From Liolophura sinensis (taxonomy: Eukaryota; Mollusca; Polyplacophora; Chitonida; Chitonidae), in NCBI RefSeq assembly GCF_032854445.1, contig NC_088299.1:10161608-10225607 (forward strand): 64,000 bases of DNA, given 5' to 3'. Shown here one piece after another: positions 12,454-51,169 of this stretch. The position numbers were made by a program, and so were the translations under genes. The notes beneath the pieces were generated by a model that was not told the DNA's origin, did no database searches, and saw nothing but the letters and a program-made list of their open reading frames with translations. How positions within the stretch are numbered: the stretch's first letter is position 1; each line of letters begins with the position of its first letter.

Positions 12454-14525
12454 AATGCAGAAGGGATGGTCTACAACAGGCAGTTGTTCCGCACAGTGAT
12501 GACTCACATCAGTCTGGTGATGCACCCAGTGACGACTCACAACAATCTGGTGATCTGTCCAGTGATGAATCACAACTATCAGCTTATCTGTCCGGTGATG
12601 AATCACAACTATCAGCTTATCTGTCCGGTGATGAATCACAACTGTCAGCTTATCTGTCCGGTGATGAATCACAACTGTCAGCTTATCTGTCCGGTGATGA
12701 ATCACAACTATCAGCTTATCTGTCCGGTGATGAATCACAACTATCAGCTGATCTGTCCGGTGATGAATCACAACTATCAGCTGATCTGTCCGGTGATGAA
12801 TCACAACTATCAGCTTATCTGTCCGGTGATGAATCACAACTATCAGCTTATCTGTCCGGTGATGAATCACAACTATCAGCTGATCTGTCCGGTGATGAAT
12901 CACAACTGTCAGCTTATCTGTCCGGTGATGAATCACAACTGTCAGCTTATCTGTCCGGTGATGAATCACAACTGTCAGCTTATCTGTCCGGTGATGAATC
13001 ACAACTATCAGCTTATCTGTCCGGTGATGAATCACAACTATCAGCTTATCTGTCCGGTGATGAATCACAACTATCAGCTGATCTGTCCGGTGATGAATCA
13101 CAACTGTCAGCTTATCTGTCCGGTGATGAATCACAACTATCAGCTTATCTGTCCGGTGATGAATCACAACTGTCAGCTTATCTGTCCGGTGATGAATCAC
13201 AACTGTCAGCTTATCTGTCCGGTGATGAATCACAACTATCAGCTTATCTGTCCGGTGATGAATCACAGCTATCAGCTGATCTGTCCGGTGATGAATCACA
13301 ACTATCAGCTGATCTGTCCGGTGATGAATCACAACTATCAGCTTATCTGTCCGGTGATGAATCACAACTATCAGCTGATCTGTCCGGTGATGAATCACAA
13401 CTATCAGCTGATCTGTCCCCGGTGATGAATCACAACTATCAGCTGATCTGTCCGGTGATGAATCACAACTATCAGCTTATCTGTCCGGTGATGAATCACA
13501 ACTATCAGCTTATCTGTCCGGTGATGAATCACAACTATCAGCTTATCTGTCCGGTGATGAATCACAACTATCAGCTGATCTGTCCGGTGATGAATCACAA
13601 CTATCAGCTTATCTGTCCGGTGATGAATCACAACTATCAGCTTATCTGTCCGGTGATGAATCACAACTATCAGCTTATCTGTCCGGTGATGAATCACAAC
13701 TATCAGCTTATCTGTCCGGTGATGAATCACAACTATCAGCTTATCTGTCCGGTGATGAATCACAACTATCAGCTTATCTGTCCGGTGATGAATCACAACT
13801 ATCAGCTTATCTGTCCGGTGATGAATCACAACTATCAGCTGATCTGTCCGGTGATGAATCACAACTATCAGCTGATCTGTCCGGTGATGAATCACAACTA
13901 TCAGCTGATCTGTCCGGTGATGAATCACAACTATCAGCTGATCTGTCCGGTGATGAATCACAACTATCAGCTTATCTGTCCGGTGATGAATCACAACTAT
14001 CAGCTGATCTGTCCATTGATGACTCACATCAAATTGCTGATCTGCCCAGTGATGACTCACAACAGACAGCTGATCTGTCCATTGATGATTCACAACAGAC
14101 AGCTGATCTGTCAAGTGATGACTCACAACAGTCAAGTGATCTGCCCAGTAATGGCTCACAACAGTCTGGTGATCTTTCCAGTGATGACTCATAACGGTCT
14201 TGTGATCTGTCCAGTGATGACTCACAAGACAGCTTATCTGTCCAGTGATGAATCACAGCTATCGGCTGATCTGTCCATTGATGACTCACATCAAATTGCT
14301 GATCTGCCCAGTGATGACTCACAACAGACAGCTGATCTGTCCAGTGATGATTCACAACAGACAGCTGATCTGTACAGTGATGACTCACAACAGACAGCTG
14401 ATTTGTCAAGTGATGACTCACAACAGACAGGTGATCTGTCCATTGACGACTCACAGCTGACAGCTGATCTGTACAGTGATGACTCACAGCAGACAGCTGA
14501 TCTGTCCAGTGATGACTCACAATAG
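12454..14525 (+). CDS. Candidate alternative last exon of TRMT10B within the 33-bp array
   Basis: A candidate acceptor CTGATTTCAG ends at 12453. From 12454 one frame is open for 690 codons to a stop at 14523-14525. The donor after exon 7 (11530) leaves one base of a codon, and joining it to 12454 gives exactly this frame (Glu, then CRRDGLQQAVVPHSDDSHQS). The product would be an acidic SGDESQLSA(Y/D)L repeat to about 13417, then NHNYQLICPVM repeats after the 2-bp shift, then SDDSQQTADL repeats. It would replace VFEIL and the end of the SPOUT domain, so the hybrid would probably lack activity. It may simply be open because the unit length is a multiple of three. Confidence 0.25.
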
Positions 14526-14545
14526 TCAAGTGATCTGTCCAATGA
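12480..14545 (+). repeat. 33-bp minisatellite downstream of the TRMT10B stop
   Basis: About 62 units. A homogeneous core (about 12570-14010, unit TCCGGTGATGAATCACAACT then ATCAGCT(T/G)ATCTG) is flanked on both sides by diverged units with GATGACTCACAACAGACAGC. The 11-codon period means the acidic frame (SGDESQLSAYL) and a second plus frame (MNHNYQLICPV) are both open, as is one minus frame (VVIHHRTDKLI). A 2-bp insertion near 13419 switches frames in the core. Diverged edges and a uniform centre are typical of expansion from the middle. Confidence 0.96.
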
Positions 14546-14584
14546 TGATCATAATATGAGAAAAGACAATCATGCACCAAGCTT

Positions 14585-29043: not shown

Positions 29044-31359
29044 CTAACGTAGAAATAGGTAAGCTAGATAAAGAGAGACGACAAACATTAGATTAAGTCT
29101 GAAGGCCGCTGCACAGGAACTTCCGTCCCCGACCACCGCAAACAATCTCATTGGACCGCCAGTTCCGTCTTTCAGTTTGAGCGGGATAGCGTAGATCATG
29201 GCGCCAGCCGGCGGAAGTTGGTCAAGATTTGCGACATTCTCGAGTCCAATACGCCTGTTTGGAAGAAGAGCGCGATGGGCCGGATACTCCCGTGACGGTC
29301 CGGAATCTATCGAAGCCGTGTCTAGCCCAACCCCTGTGATGTACGGTCGGTTTTCCCACAACCACCTAGCGGCATCGCCGCTGATCGACGGAAAATGGAA
29401 AGTTGAGGAATCTTCGGTGTTGTCAGATCCGAAGAATGCCGCCCTGTCTTTCCATTTCTTGGTCCAGCCTGAATTCAATAACACCCACGCGTTGCTTGGA
29501 ATTTTGCCATACATCTCTTCCCATTTCTGCAAGTCCTCGACGGTCAGCTGGGCGTCTGGGTTGTTCTTGGCTCTCTCGGATATGTCCACGACCACCCCCG
29601 GGCCCATCAGACGGTGTAAAGGGATGTCTGACGTGTGCCAGCCGTTCTCTGAGAAGTGAGCTGGAGCATCCATATGTGTGCCACCATGTTCCCCGACGCT
29701 AAACACATTATACTCCAGCCTGAAAAACGGACAGAAAGAGAGACTGACTTGGTGATCGGTTATATGACTGATACACTAAAAAATTCAATCTGTTATTAAA
29801 ATTTAACAGAAAGTCTGTTTGAGTGATGCTAGAATGTACATGTATTCTGTTATTATAACATAATATTCTGTCATATTCAACTTAATATTGAGTCAGTCTA
29901 AAGAATCGTTATGTTGAATTAAAAGAATATGTGTGTTATAATTAACAGAATAATCTGCTGTAATAACAGAATATATTCTATTATCAGTTAAATAACAGAC
30001 TTTCGGTTAAATTTAACGGATTTTTTTTTGAGAGTTGGTTGATGGATTCAATGACTTAGGTGGTTCAACATATTATAGCAGCGTGAGGTATGCCGGAAGA
30101 CGCCAATCCCAACACCATCGTAGACGCGGGTTCGAACCCGGCTTTCTACGTGGGGATTTGGCTTTACCGCAGGAAGCTTGTAAAGTTCCTATGGTGCAGG
30201 TATGATAGTTAGTTCTAAGATATGTCCTCTTCTCTGCATCTAACCAACATGACCGCCGTAAGTTTGAATCTTGAGGATATGGCATAAAACATCAATAAAA
30301 TCAATGAATAATATAGGGGACTAATCGATACATTCATCAAAGATATCTGCATCGATCTGTATGCCTGCCTGATCAGCACAGGTATCAAATACGACTTACC
30401 AGATTTGTTTTGTTTTTAGCATATGACTCCTTTCATTACCCATTTGCATTTTTATCTCTAGATTTCTTGTCCTTAGATGTGCCTGATCAGTTCCTAAATT
30501 TAACCCAATTACTTATTCTGCCTGAAGTATTTGGGGGCCTACCTCGGTTAATTATTAACGGTAACCACAATCCACGCTGACTGGCAACTCGGCGAGTGTT
30601 GCCGAGTTGCCGTAGAACGTTAAGTAAGGTTCGACAGCCTGGTGTGACCAGTATCCAGTTCGTCCATGACTAATTAACGCTTATCCTAATCGTGTTTGAC
30701 GCCAAAGATGGTCACGAAGTAAAGATACAATTTCTCGAGCCGCCCAGATGTGCGTTAGTGTTCGATTTGTAAAAATTCGGACAAACATCACCGATGAACG
30801 AGAGGCGTGAATGCCGCTTTCGTCACATTCAAGATGGCGAGGCTCGACTGAATGTTTGTCGCCATACATCTGAATGTTTGTCGCCATACATCTGAATGTT
30901 TGTCGCCATACATCTGAATGTTTGTCGCCATACATCTGAATGTTTGTCGCCATACATCTGAATGTTTGTCGCCATACATCTGAATGTTTGTCGCCATACA
31001 TCAATGGGCAGAATATAATTAGTGTACATCCAAGAGGGGTTTTTTTTTTCGGATTCCCTTTTTGCTTTGTGACTCTGTATACTGTATACTCGGTAAGACA
31101 GAATTCTGTTAACAAACTTTTCAGTTTCTGACACTTCACGTATAAACCCGGTGAAGAATCTTGAGGAGAAGATATCTTACCAGAACCCTCCAGGCATCCT
31201 GCCCTTCTGGAGGTTGGTTAGATTCAGTGAGGGAACACCAGGCCAGAAGACAGCATCCTTGTCCAGATCGTGGGTCAAATCTATGTATCTACGTGACTCA
31301 GAAGTCGCATGCCCGACACCAGCAAGCACCAGCACGACAACGCAAGGTAACGACATCAT
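29044..31359 (-). CDS. Secreted cyclase-family hydrolase (kynurenine formamidase / isatin hydrolase-like), two exons
   Basis: Putative metal-dependent amide or lactam hydrolase of the Cyclase superfamily (KynB-like). Exon 1 is 31359-31181 and exon 2 is 29719-29044. The borders (TTCTG|GTAAGA and TTTTTCAG|GCTGG) join in phase to give 284 residues. Residues 1-22 are a signal peptide (MMSLPCVVVLVLAGVGHA). YIDLTHDLDKDAVFWPG (about 25-41) is the N-terminal family signature. HGGTHMDAPAHF (71-82) carries the metal-binding and catalytic His71, His75, Asp77 and His81. YITGVGLDTASID is the later conserved block. The last about 20 residues (LNLMFVVSLYLAYLFLR after SSCAAA) are hydrophobic, suggesting a GPI-attachment signal or a C-terminal membrane anchor. 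The start at 31359 directly follows an acceptor-like CTTAATTTCCAG, so a 5' UTR intron is likely. The substrate cannot be told from sequence; animal homologues are often annotated kynurenine formamidase-like without proof. Confidence 0.88.
29720..30847. other. Intron of the cyclase gene (distal part)
   Basis: No exon seen. AT-rich stretches at 29780-30020 are built of CTGTTA/TAACAG-like words and form weak inverted repeats. A 3' SINE remnant (ATCTTGAGGATATGGCATAA) is at about 30240-30310. Confidence 0.4.
30848..31003 (+). repeat. 22-bp minisatellite in the cyclase intron
   Basis: Seven almost perfect copies of TGAATGTTTGTCGCCATACA followed by TC. Confidence 0.97.
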
Positions 31360-38369: not shown

Positions 38370-38697
38370 TAGGCCTCCGTGGTGCTATGGGGTGCGTGCA
38401 ATTTGCTACCATTCCTACATTTACAAGGTGGCTTCTATGGCCGAGGGTGTTAGCACACCAGCACCGCGCACCCAGCAGCTTCCCACCAATACGGTCGCTG
38501 TGTGTTCAAGTCCAACTCATGCTAGCTTCCTCTCCGACCATAGGTGGCAAGGTCTGCTAGCAGCCTGCGGATGGTCGTGGGTTTCTCCCGGGCTCTGCTC
38601 GGTTTCCTCACACCATAATGATGGTTGCCGTGAAAAAGTAAACTATTCTTAAGTACGGCGTAAAACACTAATCAAATAAATAAATAAATAAATATAT
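38370..38697 (+). repeat. SINE family 1 with interrupted head
   Basis: GGCCTCCGTGGTGCTATGGG begins a head that restarts at 38430 (GGCTTCTATGGCCGAGGGTG), so two elements or a duplicated head are fused. The tail has four AAAT units. Confidence 0.78.
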
Positions 38698-40828: not shown

Positions 40829-41296
40829 TTAAAGGAGACGAAAATTTAAACTACAAAAAAATACCATTGAAAAGAGTATGACTAGTTCTGAAGTCTTCTG
40901 TGTTGGGAGGAGAATTTCCGGCGGAAACCTCCGAAGTGCAGTTCGTACATTTCCAGTAGAACTCCTCTTCTTAGAAGGTAGCGAACAGTACAGTTCGTTT
41001 CCTGCTTAATGATCAGGAAACCGGAATGTTAGACATTGGTTCCGAGTTTATATGAACAAGCTGGCAGTTTTAACGACTCTCATGGGTGAGAGGCAACACA
41101 CGCCCAGCATAGATTACAGGGTGTTCAAGATGGAGGACGAGATGGACTCGGCGATTTATGCCAGCTTTGCCGTTTTCAGACTTGACATGTATGGAGAGGA
41201 AAAATCGCAAAATTATCTAGCAGACAGCACCAGATAGAATAAAATGTGCTCTTTTCGGCCTATAGTGTCATGTTTTTATGTTTCCTTCTCCTTTAA
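40829..41296. mobile_element. TTAA-ended MITE, copy A
   Basis: 468 bp from TTAAAGGAGACGAAA to CCTTCTCCTTTAA. The interior aligns in reverse to 45407-45987 (for example GAAGTCTTCTGTGTT here, AACACAGAAGACTTC there). Short inverted ends and a TTAA at each border suggest a non-autonomous DNA transposon inserting at TTAA. It has no transposase frame. Confidence 0.75.
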
Positions 41297-42147
41297 ATGA
41301 CTGACTTCTGATCTCGCTATACCTTTGGCCCTAGAGAGAAGTTAATATAATGTATATGTTACATATCTATATTGTGGGTTGTTGTGCCAGCTCGTAGAAT
41401 TTAACAAAATCATCTAGCCTTGTTCACATATAATTGCAAATATATATCTTTGACTTCAGTGTAGTCCATTTAGATAGACACATTGCGCTATTTTTTAAAT
41501 TCTAACATTCAGCATAATAATTCAGCGAGCTAAATGACCTCCCTCATTATTCAACATTTTGACATTTGCCGTGTTGGTCCACTGTTTTCAGTTAATTTCT
41601 CCCACTAAAAGCAATGACTTCATCCACAAACATTTTTGGTAGTTGTACGTACATTGCATTCTAGTACTCAGTGTTCAAAAAAGTCCATGGAAATGCTTGC
41701 AGTTTTGCATGGTGTATAGTAAAATGAAAATAGAACTCTGTTCCATTTGATTTGTAGATAGGTAGAAAGGCACAGAGTTATTGTTTCGTATTGAGAAAAT
41801 TCAGCGATAACTTCCAATTAGTGGCTTAGCACAGTGTAACAAAGTGCAAAACTGTAGAAATTCTGGTAGCAGTTTTCTTAAATTGGTAAACTGCCAGAGT
41901 GTAGATTATGTAAATGTAAGTAGGCTGATTGTGATATAAAGCCGTGACATCACAGATCAGGTAGATGCCACTGAGGTGTCATAACTTCCTATTTTAAACC
42001 TGAAAAGGGGCATTTTATCTTCCGTTAGCTGTATGTCTGAGTCTTAGGGCATGATCTCCAGATGACTACCAGTAGACTTTCCTCAGTATATTTACAGGCA
42101 CAATCTTAATGTTGTAGTGTTGAAGCTTGCCGTACAAACCAGAGGCC
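41297..42147. other. RER1 upstream region and 5' UTR
   Basis: No repeat or other gene recognised. Must contain the RER1 promoter and leader; no clear core-promoter motif called. Confidence 0.4.
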
Positions 42148-45100
42148 ATGTCTGACACAGAGCCAATCGCCTCTCAGCCCAGCGTGCTCTACAAAGCCTA
42201 CAGGAGGATCAGTGAGGTAAAAAAAGCATATTTAGCGTTTGATGGGTTTTTGCAGATTTGATGGCAGTGCAAAACATTGTTTATCTTGGGTGTGGGCAAT
42301 AATACATTTGTAAATATGTACTCTATTATTCCTGCAAATTTGATGGTACATGTATTTAAGTTGTATTTTTAGTTTTATACCCTCCAACTACATTGGAAAA
42401 AGATTTGTTCTGCCCATGCAAATTTGTATTGGTGTGACCTACGTTGTTCTTTATTTTGCATTAGTGGTCATTAATTGGCTGCCATAAAAAGCGACCCATG
42501 CATAGCCAATAATATTGAACAGTGTCAGAGAAATCACAAATCATGCCCATGAGTCGGGTACATGTGCACTGAGGTTGTATTTTTGTTGCAGCTCCATCAG
42601 AATGCCCTGGACAAGGCCACTCCCCACTCGGGGCCCCGCTGGGTCACCTGCTGTATTCTCCTTGTCTTGTATTTTGTCAGAGTCTACTGGGCACAGGTAA
42701 CCACTTGACTGCCAGTGCCAATTTTGAATTATTAAAAAGTTTGATATTGGGATAGGCCATGGACCAATGATCTTGCAGGGTCCAATCCAGCTGATGACGT
42801 GGTTTGTCTGCCTGTTTGAAAGGACGCAGAATCAATGCTGATTGGCTGAACGATTAGATCCTTTAATATACATGTAGTGTCATAATAATGAAATGGTTAC
42901 AGGTAGTTAAAGTAGACTTTCAATGCACATGAATGTACACTGTTTCATTGTGGAATTTATGTGTTCTGATTAAACTCTGCTCCACATAAAGCAGAAGCTG
43001 TAATCATAAAATTAAGAGGGACATAATGTTGTTGTATTCCCTTATGCCAAGATAAGTCTCAGGTAATCTGGTTTGCTCCAGTCGTGTACCTGACATCTGA
43101 TTGTTGAACACCAACTAAATAAGTACCGTAGTCAAAGCTGTTGGCTGATTAGCATTTTCACATAAAAAAACTGTTGTCATTTGATGTTGTACATGTTGTG
43201 AGCGATGTTAAACATAAATTTGAAATGTGAAAATCCTGTGAAAATTGATCAGTTTCTCTTGTGTTAACATTGTATCATTGTAGGGCTAAGAAAAAGTGTT
43301 ATTATTTTTTTTTTTTGTTTCAGGGCTGGTATATAGTGACATATGCTTTGGGAATCTATCTGTTAAATTTGTTTATAGCATTTTTAACACCCCAGATAGA
43401 TCCAGCTCTATTGGAGGATCCAGGTACATCATTTTATCTTTTTAACCTTTCTTTTACCCTAATTCCTCAACTTTTTCTCATGTGAAAGAGCAACTTTCGG
43501 TGCCATTTACGTACATTTTTAGTTAGATTTTGGAGACAAAACTAAATTTTTTGGATTTGCCAATTTCAATGCTTCACAAAAATGTAATTGTATCAGTCAA
43601 AACAGAATAATGCCTTCAGAACATGCTTGAATAAACACCTTACAAACATGCGAAAAGGTTGAAGAATTACAGTAGATATAATTTAGCCAACAAATGACAT
43701 CTGTTTTAATTTTCTGTACAGAATGTTATCTTGTGGAGTCAATTCATTTAATCATTGCAGAAGTTGGGACTGGAGCATCTAAATTGTTTGGGAATGGTTC
43801 TCTCCTAGCAAAGTTTACGTCAGCAGACTGTAGCTGGCGAAGTGTACATAATGGTACACTCAAGTCACTAGCTCCGAATGAAGAATGTCTCGTATTTGGG
43901 AAGGTCTGGCAGCAACATGCAGATGGTCGTGGGTTTCCCCCAGGCTCTGTCCAGTTTCCTCCCATCATAATGCTGGCCGCAGTCATAGAAGTGTAATATT
44001 CTTGAGTATGGAGTAAATCACCAAATCAAATATATCAATAAATCAAACGAGGAACGTCACTGGTTTGTTACAAGCAGATTTATGGTCTTAGGGTTATTGT
44101 AAAGGTGTATTTTGCTAGTTTTGCCTGTTTTCCCACACCCATATTATTTGTATATCATGGAGTATACACACATATCATTAACTTCAGCTTGTTTGATGTA
44201 ATCTTAAATGTGTCATATAACACCAAACAAGCCCGAAGTAAACAAATAACTGGTTGAATAAATAAATAAATAAATAAAACCTAATTTAATGCCGAATAAT
44301 CTCCCTTTGCATGGTGTTGAGCATTGTCTCCCTTTAATATCTGCAATACTGGTGCACAGAGGCTCTCCAAAACGTGAATCACTTAATAGCTCAGATGATC
44401 TGAGGGGAAGGTTGTTAAGCAGTGTGTTGATGTGCTGAAGTAGTATCCTGTAAGCGTAGTATTGTCATAGAAATATCGTCCTCAGATAGTATCAATCCTT
44501 CTGCCATTAAAGACAAAGAAAACACCAAGAAAAAAATTCACCTAAAGTTTAGTATTTTTCAGATGACACATTTTGTTTGAATGATTCATTCCCCTTATAG
44601 TGCTACTTATGAGTTTTTTTTTATAAAGTTTTACTAATTTCCTATAAGGAAAACTGAATTAATTGGCAACAAAAATGTTATTTGAAGTCCTTTTGTCTTC
44701 TGAAAATTCTTTTTATTATACGCAGCTTCTGGTGAAATACAGTATGTCATATGAAAGACCATCAAACACTGTCCACAAAAATAGTTAGATTTACGTTTTT
44801 TAGAATTTTTTTAATCTTGTTAAGTGCCTTTGAAACTTTCATGGTGGTCTTTTTTGACCATATTGGGACCAGTTTTTCAGGTCACATCAGGTTTTTGCCA
44901 CAACACAGACAAACTGCTGGATTTCACCATTCAAAATGCATTTACACTTAGACCTATGAAAGCATTCACCAAACTGGATTTGAGTTGGACTGTTTTAAGC
45001 CAAAAGTTCGGAATGAATGAATGATTATGGCTTAACGCCACATCGGCAATATTTCGGCCATATCGTGGCGACAAAAGTTTGGAGGTGACATTACTGATAC

Positions 45101-48100
45101 CATCAAGGCCATAACAGACTACTGAGGGTCTGATATTAAAACCACTTTACTTGGTTGAAAAAAATGCTAAAAAAGTATATATTAGGCTATTTTCCTAAGG
45201 AGACATTAATGTGAATAGTTTATGTGACCATCTTCTTTCCCCACTTCTACAGTATCTCCAAATATTTTGTGTTTACTTTGTTTCCAGATGATGGTCCTTC
45301 ATTACCAACAAAAGCTAATGAGGAATTTAAACCATTTATGCGGCGTCTACCTGAATTTAAATTCTGGTAAGTACTTGATGTTAATCTCTAAAAGTTCTGT
45401 GGTATATTAAAGGAGAAGAAAACTTAAAAACATGACACTTTAGGGTGAAATGAGCGCATTTTTTTCTATCTGGTAGTGCCTGCTGCATAATTTTGTGGTT
45501 TTTGATTGCCATACACGTAAAGCCTGAAAATGGCAAAGCTGGCATAAATCACTGAATCCATCACATCCTCCATCTTTAACACTCTGTAATTTATGCTGGG
45601 GGTGAGTTTCTTGTCAGCCAATGAGAGTGGTTAAAACTGCCGGCTTGTTCATGTAAACTCTGAACCTACATCCAATGTTCCGGTTTCCTGATCGTCAAGC
45701 CGAAAACGAACTGTACTGTTCGCTACCTTCTAGGAAAAAGAGTTCTACCGGAAATGTACTAACTGCACTTCGGAGGTTTCCGACGGCAATTCTTCTTCTA
45801 ACACAGAAGACTTCAGGACTAGTTGTTGGGCAAAATGGAGTTGCCAACTGCAGCTGTTTTCGCTGACTTTATTTATAATTTATCAACTTGAGGTACATAT
45901 TAGAATTTTTTATGGCATGCACCTGCGAGGAAACACATACTCTTTTCAGTGGTATTTGATTGATATTTAAATATTCTTCTCCTTTAAACATAGTGAGATT
46001 CTTGTTCAGAAAGGGGAACAACTCTTTGGGGAATACATAACTCGTGGAACTTGTACATCTCTATTAAGTGGCTGACCTGTGACTAAGGAGGTGATTTGGT
46101 GCTCTCTTCACCACTCCCCCTCCTTTTAAGCTGACATCACATGGCATGGACATGTTGGACAAAAAAAATAAGTATTAGTCCGAATATCGCATGATGTCTT
46201 CTGGTTTTGACTTCAAGACTTGTACTGCTGATATAGTTCCAACAAAATTTCAATTTATCTTTATTGTCTTTGTGTTTCAGGTACTCTGCATCAAAAGCCA
46301 TTGTCATAGCGACTATATGCACATTCTTTGAAGTATTCAATGTTCCTGTGTTCTGGCCCATCCTGGTCATGTACTTCATCATATTATTCACCATCACAAT
46401 GAAGAGGCAGATTAGGGTGAGTCTTCCTTTAGAACTGCTGTATTTAGAATGATGAAATATTCAATGTTCCTGTGTTCTGGCCCATCCTGGTCATGTACTT
46501 CATCGTATTATTCACCATCACAATGAAGAGGCAGATTAGGGTGAGTCTTCCTGTAGAACTGCTGTATTTAGAATGATGAAGTATTCAATGTTCCTGTGTT
46601 CTGGCCCATCCTGGTCATGTACTTCATCATATTATTCACCATCACAATGAAGAGGCAGATTAGGGTAAGTCTTCTTTTAGAACTGCTGTATTTAGAATGA
46701 TGAAGTATTCAATGTTCCTGTGTTCTGGCCCATCCTGGTCATGTACTTCATCATATTATTCACCATCACAATGAAGAGGCAGATTAGGGTGAGTCTTCTT
46801 TTAGAACTGCTGTATTTAGAATGATGAAGTATTCAATGTTCCTGTGTTCTGGCCCATTCTCGTCATGTACTTCATCATATTATTCACCATCAAAATGAAG
46901 AGGCAGATTAGGGTGAGTCTTCTTTTAGAACTGCTGTATTTAGAATGATGAAGTATTCAATGTTCCTGTGTTCTGGCCCATCCTGGTCATGTACTTCATC
47001 ATATTATTCACCATCACAATGAAGAGGCAGATTAGGGTGAGTCTTCTTTTAGTACTGCTGTATTTAGAATGATGAAGTATTCAATGTTCCTGTGTTCTGG
47101 CCCATCCTGGTCATGTACTTCATCATATTATTCACCATCACAATGAAGAGGCAGATTAGGGTGAGTCTTCCTTTAGAACTGCTGTATTTAGAATGATGAA
47201 GTATTCAGTGTTCCTGTGTTCTGGCCCATCCTGGTCATGTACTTCATCATATTATTCACCATCACAATGAAGAGGCAGATTAGGGTGAGTCATCCTTTAG
47301 AACTGCTGTATTTAGAATGATGAAGTATTCAATGTTCCTGTGTTCTGGCCCATTCTGGTCATGTACTTCATCATATTGTTCACCATCACAATGAAGAGGC
47401 AGATTAGGGTAAGTCTTCTTTTAGAACTGCTGTATTTAGAATGATGAAGTATTCAGTGTTCCTGTGTTCTGGCCCATTTTGGTCATGTACTTCATCATAT
47501 TATTCACCATCACAATGAAGAGGCAGATTAGGGTAAGTCTTCTTTTAGTACTGCTGTATTTAGAATGATGAAGTATTCAATGTTCCTGTGTTCTGGCCCA
47601 TCCTGGTCATGTACTTCATCATATTATTCACCATCACAATGAAGAGGCAGATTAGGGTGAGTCTTCTTTTAGAACTGCTGTATTTAGAATGATGAAGTAT
47701 TCAATGTTCCTGTGTTCTGGCCCATCCTGGTCATGTACTTCATCATATTATTCACCATCACAGTGAAGAGGCAGATTAGGGTGAGTCTTCTTTTAGAACT
47801 GCTGTATTTAGAATGATGAAGTATTCAGTGTTCCTGTGTTCTGGCCCATTTTGGTCATGTACTTCATCATATTATTCACCATCAAAATGAAGAGGCAGAT
47901 TAGGGTGAGTCTTCTTTTAGAACTGCTGTATTTAGAATGATGAAGTATTCAATGTTCCTGTGTTCTGGCCCATCCTGGTCATGTACTTCATCATATTATT
48001 CACCATCACAATGAAGAGGCAGATTAGGGTGAGTCTTTTTTTAGAACTGCTGTATTTAGAATGATGAAGTATTCAATGTTCCTGTGTTCTGGCCCATTCT

Positions 48101-50742
48101 GGTCATGTACTTCATCATATTGTTCACCATCACAGTGAAGAGGCAGATTAGGGTAAGTCTTCTTTTAGAACTGCTGTATTTAGAATGATGAAGTATTCAG
48201 TGTTCCTGTGTTCTGGCCCATTTTGGTCATGTACTTCATCATATTATTCACCATCACAATGAAGAGGCAGATTAGGGTGAGTCTTCTTTTAGAACTGCTG
48301 TATTTAGAATGATGAAGTATTCAGTGTTCCTGTGTTCTGGCCCATCCTGGTCATGTACTTCATCATATTATTCACCATCACAATGAAGAGGCAGATTAGG
48401 GTGAGTCTTCTTTTAGAACTGCTGTATTTAGAATGATGAAGTATTCAATGTTCCTGTGTTCTGGCCCATTCTCGTCATGTACTTCATCATATTATTCACC
48501 ATCAAAATGAAGAGGCAGATTAGGGTGAGTCTTCTTTTAGAACTGCTGTATTTAGAATGATGAAGTATTCAATGTTCCTGTGTTCTGGCCCATCCTGGTC
48601 ATGTACTTCATCATATTATTCACCATCACAATGAAGAGGCAGATTAGGGTGAGTCTTTTTTTAGAACTGCTGTATTTAGAATGATGAAGTATTCAATTTT
48701 CCTGTGTTCTGGCCCATCCTGGTCATGTACTTCATCATATTATTCACCATCACAATGAAGAGGCAGATTAGGGTAAGTCTTCTTTTAGAACTGCTGTATT
48801 TAGAATGATGAAGTATTCAATGTTCCTGTGTTCTGGCCCATTCTCGTCATGTACTTCATCATATTATTCACCATCAAAATGAAGAGGCAGATTAGGGTGA
48901 GTCTTCTTTTAGAACTGCTGTATTTAGAATGATGAAGTATTCAATGTTCCTGTGTTCTGGCCCATCCTGGTCATGTACTTCATCATATTATTCACCATCA
49001 CAATGAAGAGGCAGATTAGGGTGAGTCTTCTTTTAGAACTGCTGTATTTAGAATGATGAAGTATTCAGTGTTCCTGTGTTCTGGCCCATCCTGGTCATGT
49101 ACTTCATCATATTATTCACCATCACAATGAAGAGGCAGATTAGGGTGAGTCTTCTTTTAGAACTGCTGTATTTAGAATGATGAAGTATTCAGTGTTCCTG
49201 TGTTCTGGCCCATTCTGGTCATGTACTTCATCATATTATTCACCATCACAGTGAAGAGGCAGATTAGGGTGAGTCTTCTTTTAGAACTGCTGTATTTAGA
49301 ATGATGAAGTATTCAGTGTTCCTGTGTTCTGGCCCATTTTGGTCATGTACTTCATCATATTATTCACCATCACAATGAAGAGGCAGATTAGGGTGAGTCT
49401 TTTTTTAGAACTGCTGTATTTAGAATGATGAAGTATTCAATGTTCCTGTGTTCTGGCCCATCCTGGTCATGTACTTCATCATATTATTCACCATCACAAT
49501 GAAGAGGCAGATTAGGGTGAGTCTTCTTTTAGAACTGCTGTATTTAGAATGATGAAGTATTCAATGTTCCTGTGTTCTGGCCCATCCTGGTCATGTACTT
49601 CATCATATTATTCACCATCACAGTGAAGAGGCAGATTAGGGTGAGTCTTCTTTTAGAACTGCTGTATTTAGAATGATGAAGTATTCAATGTTCCTGTGTT
49701 CTGGCCCATCCTGGTCGTGTACTTCATCATATTATTCACCATCACAATGAAGAGGCAGATTAGGGTAAGTCTTCTTTTAGAACTGCTGTATTTAGAATGA
49801 TGAAGTATTCAGTGTTCCTGTGTTCTGGCCCATTCTGGTCATGTACTTCATCATATTATTCACCATCAAAATGAAGAAGCAGATTAGGGTGAGTCTTCTT
49901 TTAGTACTGCTGTATTTAGAATGATGAAGTATTCAATGTTCCTGTGTTCTGGCCCATCCTGGTCATGTACTTCATCATATTATTCACCATCACAATGAAG
50001 AGGCAGATTAGGGTGAGTCTTCTTTTAGAACTGCTGTATTTAGAATGATGAAGTATTCAGTGTTCTGGCTTGTCTGGTCATATAGGGAGTCTACTGTTGC
50101 TTTCTTATGTCTGTTGGCAAAGCATGCAAACCATGTGATGTTGGACTTAAGATTGGAATTAATGGATGAGTGTGCTAACATATTGCTTAATTCTGCCTTA
50201 CAATAGTAAAAGGATGTGTATTTTATGATATGGGGTCGTTGTGGCCTAGGTGATCAGCACACCAGGGCGGCGCAATAACCCATGAACCTCTCACCGGTGC
50301 GGTAGCTGTGAGTTCAAGTCCAGCTCATGCTGGGTTTCCCTCCGGCTGTATGTGGGAAGGTCTGTTAGAAACCTGCAGAGGACCATGGGTTTCCCATGGG
50401 CTCAGTGAAATATTCTTCAGCATGGTGTAAAGCACCAATGAAATAAATAAATTTATTTGTAACAATGTTATGAATGAGTTTTCTGGCTCAGAGCTACTTC
50501 AGACTTTTGAAAAAGGTTTTATAAGTTCATTTGAGAGGACCTCACACCTGTCTTTTATGATCTCTAATCATGATTATTCATTTATTAACCTCACCATTTA
50601 TATTGATAGTTTGCTTGGAAATTTAATTTTGCTACATTTTTTCTACTTGCAGCACATGATAAAATACAGATATTTGCCCTTTTCGTATGGGAAGGCCAAG
50701 TACAAGGGGAAGGAAGACACAGGGAAAGTAGTATCGTCATAA
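42148..50742 (+). CDS. RER1: RER1, Golgi-to-ER retrieval receptor (six coding exons)
   Basis: Four-pass membrane protein that returns ER-resident membrane proteins and unassembled subunits from the cis-Golgi to the ER by COPI. Exons: 42148-42216, 42592-42696, 43324-43423, 45288-45366, 46281-46416 and 50653-50742. All have GT/AG borders in phase and total 579 nt, or 192 residues (human RER1 has 196). Near-identity to known RER1 is obvious: [20 protein letters not shown] (58-77), [26 protein letters not shown] (to 118), [33 protein letters not shown] and the end [17 protein letters not shown]. Hydrophobic segments fall near 40-56, 60-78, 122-138 and 141-157. Intron 5 (4.2 kb) is mostly a 124-bp array copied from the end of exon 5. 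Intron 4 carries MITE copy B and intron 3 a SINE. Confidence 0.97.
43890..44048 (+). repeat. SINE family 1, 3' part (RER1 intron 3)
   Basis: GGGAAGGTCTGGCAGCAACA through TATTCTTGAGTATGGAGTAA; tRNA head absent. Confidence 0.8.
45407..45987. mobile_element. TTAA-ended MITE, copy B (RER1 intron 4)
   Basis: 581 bp from TTAAAGGAGAAGAAAAC to TTCTTCTCCTTTAA, opposite in orientation to copy A and about 110 bp longer. No coding capacity. It begins 41 bp after the exon 4 donor. Confidence 0.78.
46447..50066 (+). repeat. 124-bp tandem array of the 3' part of RER1 exon 5 plus its donor
   Basis: 29 complete units spaced exactly 124 bp (starts 46447, 46571, 46695 ... 49919) and a truncated one from 50043. 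Each unit is TTTAG, then 93 open nt ([31 protein letters not shown]), then GTGAGT or GTAAGT, then a 25-nt remainder. The homologous coding part corresponds to residues 135-163 of RER1. Variants between units are few: CAATGT/CAGTGT, CATCCTG/CATTTTG/CATTCTC, ATCACA/ATCAAA, ATGAAG/GTGAAG. None creates a stop and none removes the AG or GT in the units I read. Confidence 0.97.
50230..50458 (+). repeat. SINE family 1 (RER1 intron 5)
   Basis: GGGGTCGTTGTGGCCTAGGT head, GAGTTCAAGTCCAGCTCATG, shortened 3' domain and AATGAAATAAATAAATTTAT tail. It sits just after the exon 5 array and about 195 bp before the last exon. Confidence 0.83.
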
Positions 50743-51169
50743 CATTTTTTCCAACATTCAGGTGAAACAAAAAAAAAAAGTTGATAAACAATCATCACAA
50801 TGACAGCTGTGTAAATATCTCTATACTCTTTCCTTAAGTGGATATGCATGTAAATGAGTGTTATTAGTACTTGCTCTGTTCTTCTCACAGCGAGTAGAAC
50901 TATCTTTGTTCTCCATTCCTGTGTCAGCATCAGTGTTTACGGAGGAAGGTTTACAGTGATGGATTACCTCCCCTGTGTGTAGGTACAAATTTAGGACTAC
51001 AAACACAGTATACTGGTGGCCAAGGATAGTGTGCTGCTTAGGAAACATGGAAATCTTATTTCCAGCGTAATGCAAATTTTTAGTTGTGAATGAAATAACT
51101 TCAATATGCAGAGTGTTTAATAGCTTTTTTTTCATCTGTGTATAAAGACAACACCAATCATCATTTATC

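Follow-up and report, generated by a model that had tools for sequence, protein, structure and literature searches.

A minisatellite-type tandem array carrying 29 copies of an exon end and its splice donor in the last intron of the chiton RER1 gene

We analyzed a 64,000-nt stretch of genomic DNA (the window) from the chiton Liolophura sinensis, which lies on a contig of 19,479,325 bases; this length and the genome totals match scaffold_13 and the totals of a published PacBio HiFi assembly from the chiton Liolophura japonica (PMC11068029). The forward strand of the window contains a complete coding sequence for RER1 (42148-50742), whose exons were located by tblastn using human RER1 as the query and joined at GT-AG introns. 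There are six exons: exon 1 (coding part, 42148..42216, with the start codon at 42148), exon 2 (42592..42696), exon 3 (43324..43423), exon 4 (45288..45366), exon 5 (46281..46416; 136 nt, ending at its authentic donor, AGG/GTGAGT), and exon 6 (50653..50742; 29 codons plus the stop), whose acceptor pairs with exon 5. The five introns measure 375, 627, 1864, 914, and 4236 nt, all of them longer than 250 nt, and the spliced coding sequence of 579 nt encodes 192 amino acids followed by the terminal stop. The product matches the Pfam family Rer1 (PF03248, E 1.2e-76), with its residues 18-181 aligned to positions 3-167 of the 167-position profile, that is, over the length of the family, and it is 100% identical to a database entry, 'protein RER1-like [Liolophura sinensis]', which has one member sequence. 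When we searched the genome (609,464,459 bases, 632 contigs) with the RER1 protein and scored the best candidates, 35 of 35 matches fell inside the RER1 gene and no second copy was seen. Because all of these matches fall in one gene, RER1 looks single-copy in the chiton genome, as far as the search scores.

According to published descriptions, RER1 crosses the membrane with four putative segments, and its two ends face the cytosol (PMC5587320). No solved structure of RER1 was matched, and an AlphaFold model of the 192-residue protein, whose input alignment comprised 49 of the 120 listed homologs (P0001 included), reached a mean pLDDT of 58.3 and a pTM of 0.30, which was too poor to address topology. 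The last helix of this low-confidence model (142-167) overlaps residues 135-163, the part of RER1 that is copied in the array described below. An interspersed repeat is also present around the gene in two copies of opposite orientation, 83-87% alike over ~415 nt, with one copy upstream of RER1 (40881-41296) and the other in RER1 intron 4 (45407-45823).

The window contains several other features. About 61 copies of a 33-bp unit occupy 12529-14548; because 33 is a multiple of 3, this array holds long open frames (up to 693 aa), and a Pfam match of these frames to Autoind_bind, which no single stretch passes, looks spurious. On the minus strand, an open frame at 29044-29775 encodes a Cyclase domain (PF04199, E 8.6e-39) and is probably an exon of a neighboring gene. 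By eye, the segments at ~50230-50450 and near 38440-38690 have the look of a mollusc SINE with a tRNA-like head; scans of the window for tRNAs (ARAGORN) and for Rfam families found nothing.

The last RER1 intron (intron 5) is the site of the feature studied here. TRF reports a single array on the forward strand that includes the end of exon 5 (46329..50065), with a period of 124, 30.1 copies, 97% matches, and 0% indels. Within it are 29 complete intronic units (46448..50043), each made of a 93-nt open segment and a 31-nt spacer, followed by a partial thirtieth unit without a donor (50044..50065); past ~50065, the likeness score of this partial unit is 17 against a shuffled mean of 16.9, which is no better than shuffled sequence. 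Every unit consists of 6 nt (AATGAT), then the last 87 nt of exon 5, and then the 31-nt spacer, which opens with the donor and closes with TATTTAG. In all 29 units, an AG precedes and a GT follows a 93-nt phase-0 frame without a stop, and the donor reads GTGAGT in 23 units and GTAAGT in the remaining 6. The last 87 nt of RER1 exon 5 either founded the array or belong to it, and over the 118 positions compared, the exon 5 copy departs from the unit consensus once, in the spacer. The preliminary description of this DNA had named the gene RER1, placed its final junction at 46416-50653, counted 29 tandem units of this form in one intron, and argued that the 31-nt spacer is too short to serve as an intron, so that neighboring units could not be joined directly; our analysis agrees with it on each of these points.

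The units are closely alike. They fall into 20 distinct types with a mean pairwise difference of 2.8%, five of them are identical to the consensus, and no clear higher-order period was seen, mean differences at lags 1-14 being 3.05-3.80. A query taken from the start of the array region (301 nt) gave 13 genome matches, all inside the RER1 gene, and within the reach of this search, which scores its best candidates, the array was seen nowhere else in the assembly of 609 Mb. With copies arranged head to tail and a unit longer than about 10 nt, the RER1 array has the form of a minisatellite. Because the mean unit difference is 2.8% and the published heterozygosity of the Liolophura japonica genome is 1.22-1.26% (PMC11068029), we infer that the array is young or was recently homogenized.

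The copied donors are strong. We computed U1 pairing values of -9.6 (24 donors) or -9.5 (6 donors) for the 30 donors of exon 5 and the units, and of -6.9, -8.0, -7.1, and -8.6 for the other four RER1 donors; of the 331 GTs elsewhere in 42000-50800, one is as strong as the array donors. Eight of the nine donor positions are invariant, for which the chance probability is 0.27, so that selection on the donors is indistinguishable from chance, and the sole varying position, +3, is G or A, both of which are consensus. Because the five consensus-identical units share both the upstream 87 nt and the donor with exon 5, local sequence cannot settle which donor is chosen; with the extra donors equal to the authentic one, position must decide instead. 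Use of the first donor gives an exon of 136 nt, and use of successive later donors gives 260 nt, 384 nt, and so on, while the intron left behind shrinks from 4236 nt with the first donor to 640 nt with the last.

Transcripts spliced from any donor other than the first would encode 11 foreign residues and then reach a TGA stop (46450..46452, forward strand), which lies 88 nt before the second donor and hence 88 nt or more upstream of whichever later donor is used. With a nonsense-mediated decay rule of ~50 nt, this stop is predicted to lie far enough upstream to trigger decay. A truncated RER1 made from such a message would be without its last 29 residues; human RER1 minus its 25 C-terminal residues is reported to have no retention/retrieval function and to co-localize partially with a cis-Golgi marker (PMC5587320).

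Published work on competing donors offers some guidance as to which of the 30 is used. In human genes with long introns and near-equal donors, the donor nearest across the exon is described as favored (PMC9225289), and when minigenes with introns >250 nt carried two identical strong donors, 5 of 5 used the upstream one exclusively (PMC9225289). The same source reports that, without strength matching, most events in all four intron classes favored the downstream donor, whereas among events matched for strength the upstream donor won in 60% overall (PMC9225289); these data are human and concern pairs of sites, compared with 30 donors here. On these published results, the first donor is the best guess for RER1, and some leakage to later donors would be quite possible.

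The headline of the preliminary description was that the units are 29 potential exons, each adding a membrane segment. Under this reading, the units would be alternative cassette exons, with one or more non-adjacent 93-nt segments included and each inclusion adding 31 residues and a membrane segment, and the AG, the open phase-0 frame, and the strong donor found in 29/29 units speak for it. The donor and the frame came with the copied exon end, however, and therefore count as one inherited feature, not 29; the only new element in a unit is the upstream in-phase AG, and a shuffled spacer gives an open phase-0 AG in 30% of 20,000 trials. We also considered whether selection had kept the frames open. 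Stops would be created by 9 of the 279 possible changes, 12 sites vary, and the probability that none of these changes creates a stop is 0.67, so finding the frame open in all 29 units gives no evidence that they code. The AG itself is unremarkable. When AGs were ranked over the whole window with a simple matrix (n = 3628, one unit ranked), the unit AG was outscored by 26.5% of the AGs and the five real RER1 acceptors by 0.06-6%; with the same matrix, the scores across the 29 units were -3.6 to -0.6, compared with 1.5 to 8.6 for the real acceptors, and the unit acceptor is without a long pyrimidine tract. An AG 15 nt upstream has a slightly better score, but it reads AAC TGC TGT ATT TAG and so runs into a stop, and the other six AGs in the unit score lower as acceptors. 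Nor does the variation among units suggest translation: the exon-like part varies at 12 of 93 sites and the spacer at 6 of 31 (Fisher p 0.39, with low power at 18 variable sites in all), transitions comprise 3 synonymous and 6 other changes where 29 and 61 are possible (again few sites and low power), and, among all changes, 4 of 12 are synonymous versus 55 of 270 possible (p 0.28, in a small test that could miss weak selection). In nine of the 29 units, T157K, M158V, or R160K alters a residue that does not vary across the 49 RER1 proteins that were aligned out of the 120 listed. Because of these nine units, 20 of the 29 inserts end in TMKRQIR, and not all of them as had been claimed. The variation among units looks neutral, as if they were untranslated. 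At the protein level, the hydrophobic peak gained with one insert (2.22) equals the last peak of RER1, which favors the cassette reading, as does a RER1 prediction from the bat Myotis brandtii (P0043) in which 40 residues of the same region, from GILV to KRQIK, occur twice and an earlier segment is missing; this repeat reflects either faulty annotation or a partial-exon duplication that arose independently. On the other side, the 120 proteins listed from a total of 4515 matches include no lengthened Liolophura RER1, in a search that allowed lengths up to 1.75x the query (~four inserts), and the helix runs straight into H-M in 119 of these 120 proteins, the exception being P0043. The catalogued Liolophura protein is the plain 192-residue form, which as a RefSeq-type annotation counts as indirect evidence. 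In addition, in a protein with four putative segments and both ends cytosolic, the fifth membrane segment brought by a cassette insert should misplace the C-terminal tail. We consider it very unlikely that the units serve as cassette exons. Of what the preliminary description proposed, its alternative, that the donors are decoys and the splicing machinery must take the first, fits best, given that the extra donors equal the authentic one.

Whether these decoys do any work is a separate matter. Downstream donors could be used often enough, or could hold the spliceosome in non-productive complexes, to lower RER1 output through intron retention or transcripts destined for decay, with an effect that scales with the number of units. 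The array donors do equal the authentic donor and exceed the other donors of the gene, each later donor would end translation at one shared early stop at least 88 nt before the donor used, and there are other genes in which decoy splice sites can favor intron retention (PMC8706089). However, the minigenes with identical donor pairs and long introns used the upstream donor only (PMC9225289), cryptic donors at other positions caused no retention (PMC8706089), and the donors of the array show no sign of selection. A regulatory role of this kind seems improbable to us, and we judge in the same way the proposal that the array is a copy-number rheostat, in which 29 decoy donors divert a fraction of the pre-mRNA to decay-bound or tail-less forms; if that were true, the unit number, which should vary between individuals, would set the amount of full-length RER1. 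We also asked how far the assembly can be trusted at this locus. Tandem arrays are easily mis-assembled, and the published coverage is 14x (PMC11068029), but the mean HiFi read of 8,347 bp is longer than the 3.7-kb array (PMC11068029), and the presence of 20 distinct unit types among 29 with no clear higher-order period argues against an artifact. It is very unlikely that the array or its copy number is an artifact of assembly.

Tandem exon duplication is a source of alternative and mutually exclusive exons. The RER1 array resembles it in that exon sequence was copied into the adjoining intron and in that neighbors cannot be joined across a spacer shorter than a functional intron; it differs in that tandem exon duplication copies whole exons with their acceptors, whereas the array copied the 3' part of an exon with its donor only, and no real acceptor came along. 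The nearest precedent is the minisatellite of human IFI6, which has a repeat unit of 12 nt. In both genes, a minisatellite sits at an exon-intron junction with a donor in each unit and thus many possible exon ends, and in IFI6 two downstream repeats are reported to serve as donors, giving three mRNAs (PMC4526556, citing Turri et al. 1995). In RER1, a consensus donor (AGG/GTGAGT or AGG/GTAAGT) is likewise found in 29/29 units beside the authentic exon end. Unlike that of IFI6, the RER1 unit is 124 nt long and includes 87 nt from a coding exon, and in RER1 any donor after the first leads to an early stop. An earthworm metallothionein clone is another invertebrate gene with duplicated exon sequence, its duplicated fourth exons being reported as absent from the final transcript (PMC12783039); in that report the duplicated exons are a feature distinct from the minisatellite, whereas in RER1 it is the exon end that forms the repeat unit. 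The array also resembles the decoy splice sites and decoy exons described in PMC8706089, in that it supplies extra sites possibly competing with the authentic one, but there function was shown by reporters, whereas the RER1 decoys are 29 copies of a real site for which a decoy role is a possibility. Searches of titles and abstracts on minisatellite donors, competing sites, decoy exons, and Liolophura genomes returned no match for a RER1 tandem array.

We conclude that the RER1 array is very probably a young, non-coding minisatellite that took in an exon end and can be tolerated since the first donor wins by exon definition. On this account, 124 nt bridging the junction of exon 5 and intron 5 would have been duplicated, then multiplied and homogenized, probably by unequal exchange, and its units would go unused as exons. 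In the RER1 mRNA, the first donor at 46416 would be joined to exon 6 at 50653, being picked by its position: the exon 5 acceptor and the nearest donor would together define the 136-nt exon, and the 29 equally good downstream donors would be ignored or would leak slightly. Where a later donor was used, read-through into the spacer would end at the stop after 11 residues and leave a decay-bound message or a tail-less protein. The array may be tolerated because exon 5 and the units share the exon end and the donor, so that exchange among them would keep acceptor, exon, and donor in order, and copy number is predicted to vary without loss of RER1.

The surroundings of the gene are rich in such repeats. 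Counting arrays with a period of at least 10 and at least 3 copies, we found that tandem arrays cover 12,343 of the 64,000 bases of the window (19 arrays, the RER1 array included) and 17,821 of 190,000 readable bases on the same scaffold (36 arrays, in 20 sampled stretches of 10 kb totaling 200,000 bases, 10,000 of them N); the minisatellite density of the window is ~2x that of the sampled scaffold bases. Among the 11 sampled TRF rows with a period of at least 80, GGT[AG]AG was present in the forward direction in 0 and its reverse-strand counterpart in 1. It is plausible that an array catching an exon end was an accident of array-rich DNA.

In this chiton, 30 donors with matching local sequence stand before one acceptor in a conserved and apparently single-copy gene. 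Because the 30 donors match in local sequence, donor strength cannot explain the choice among them, and the RER1 array provides a natural experiment on exon-centered versus intron-centered donor choice that existing RNA-seq could read. The array also suggests how a tandem repeat can span a splice junction without breaking the gene, as exchange between units should restore the junction.
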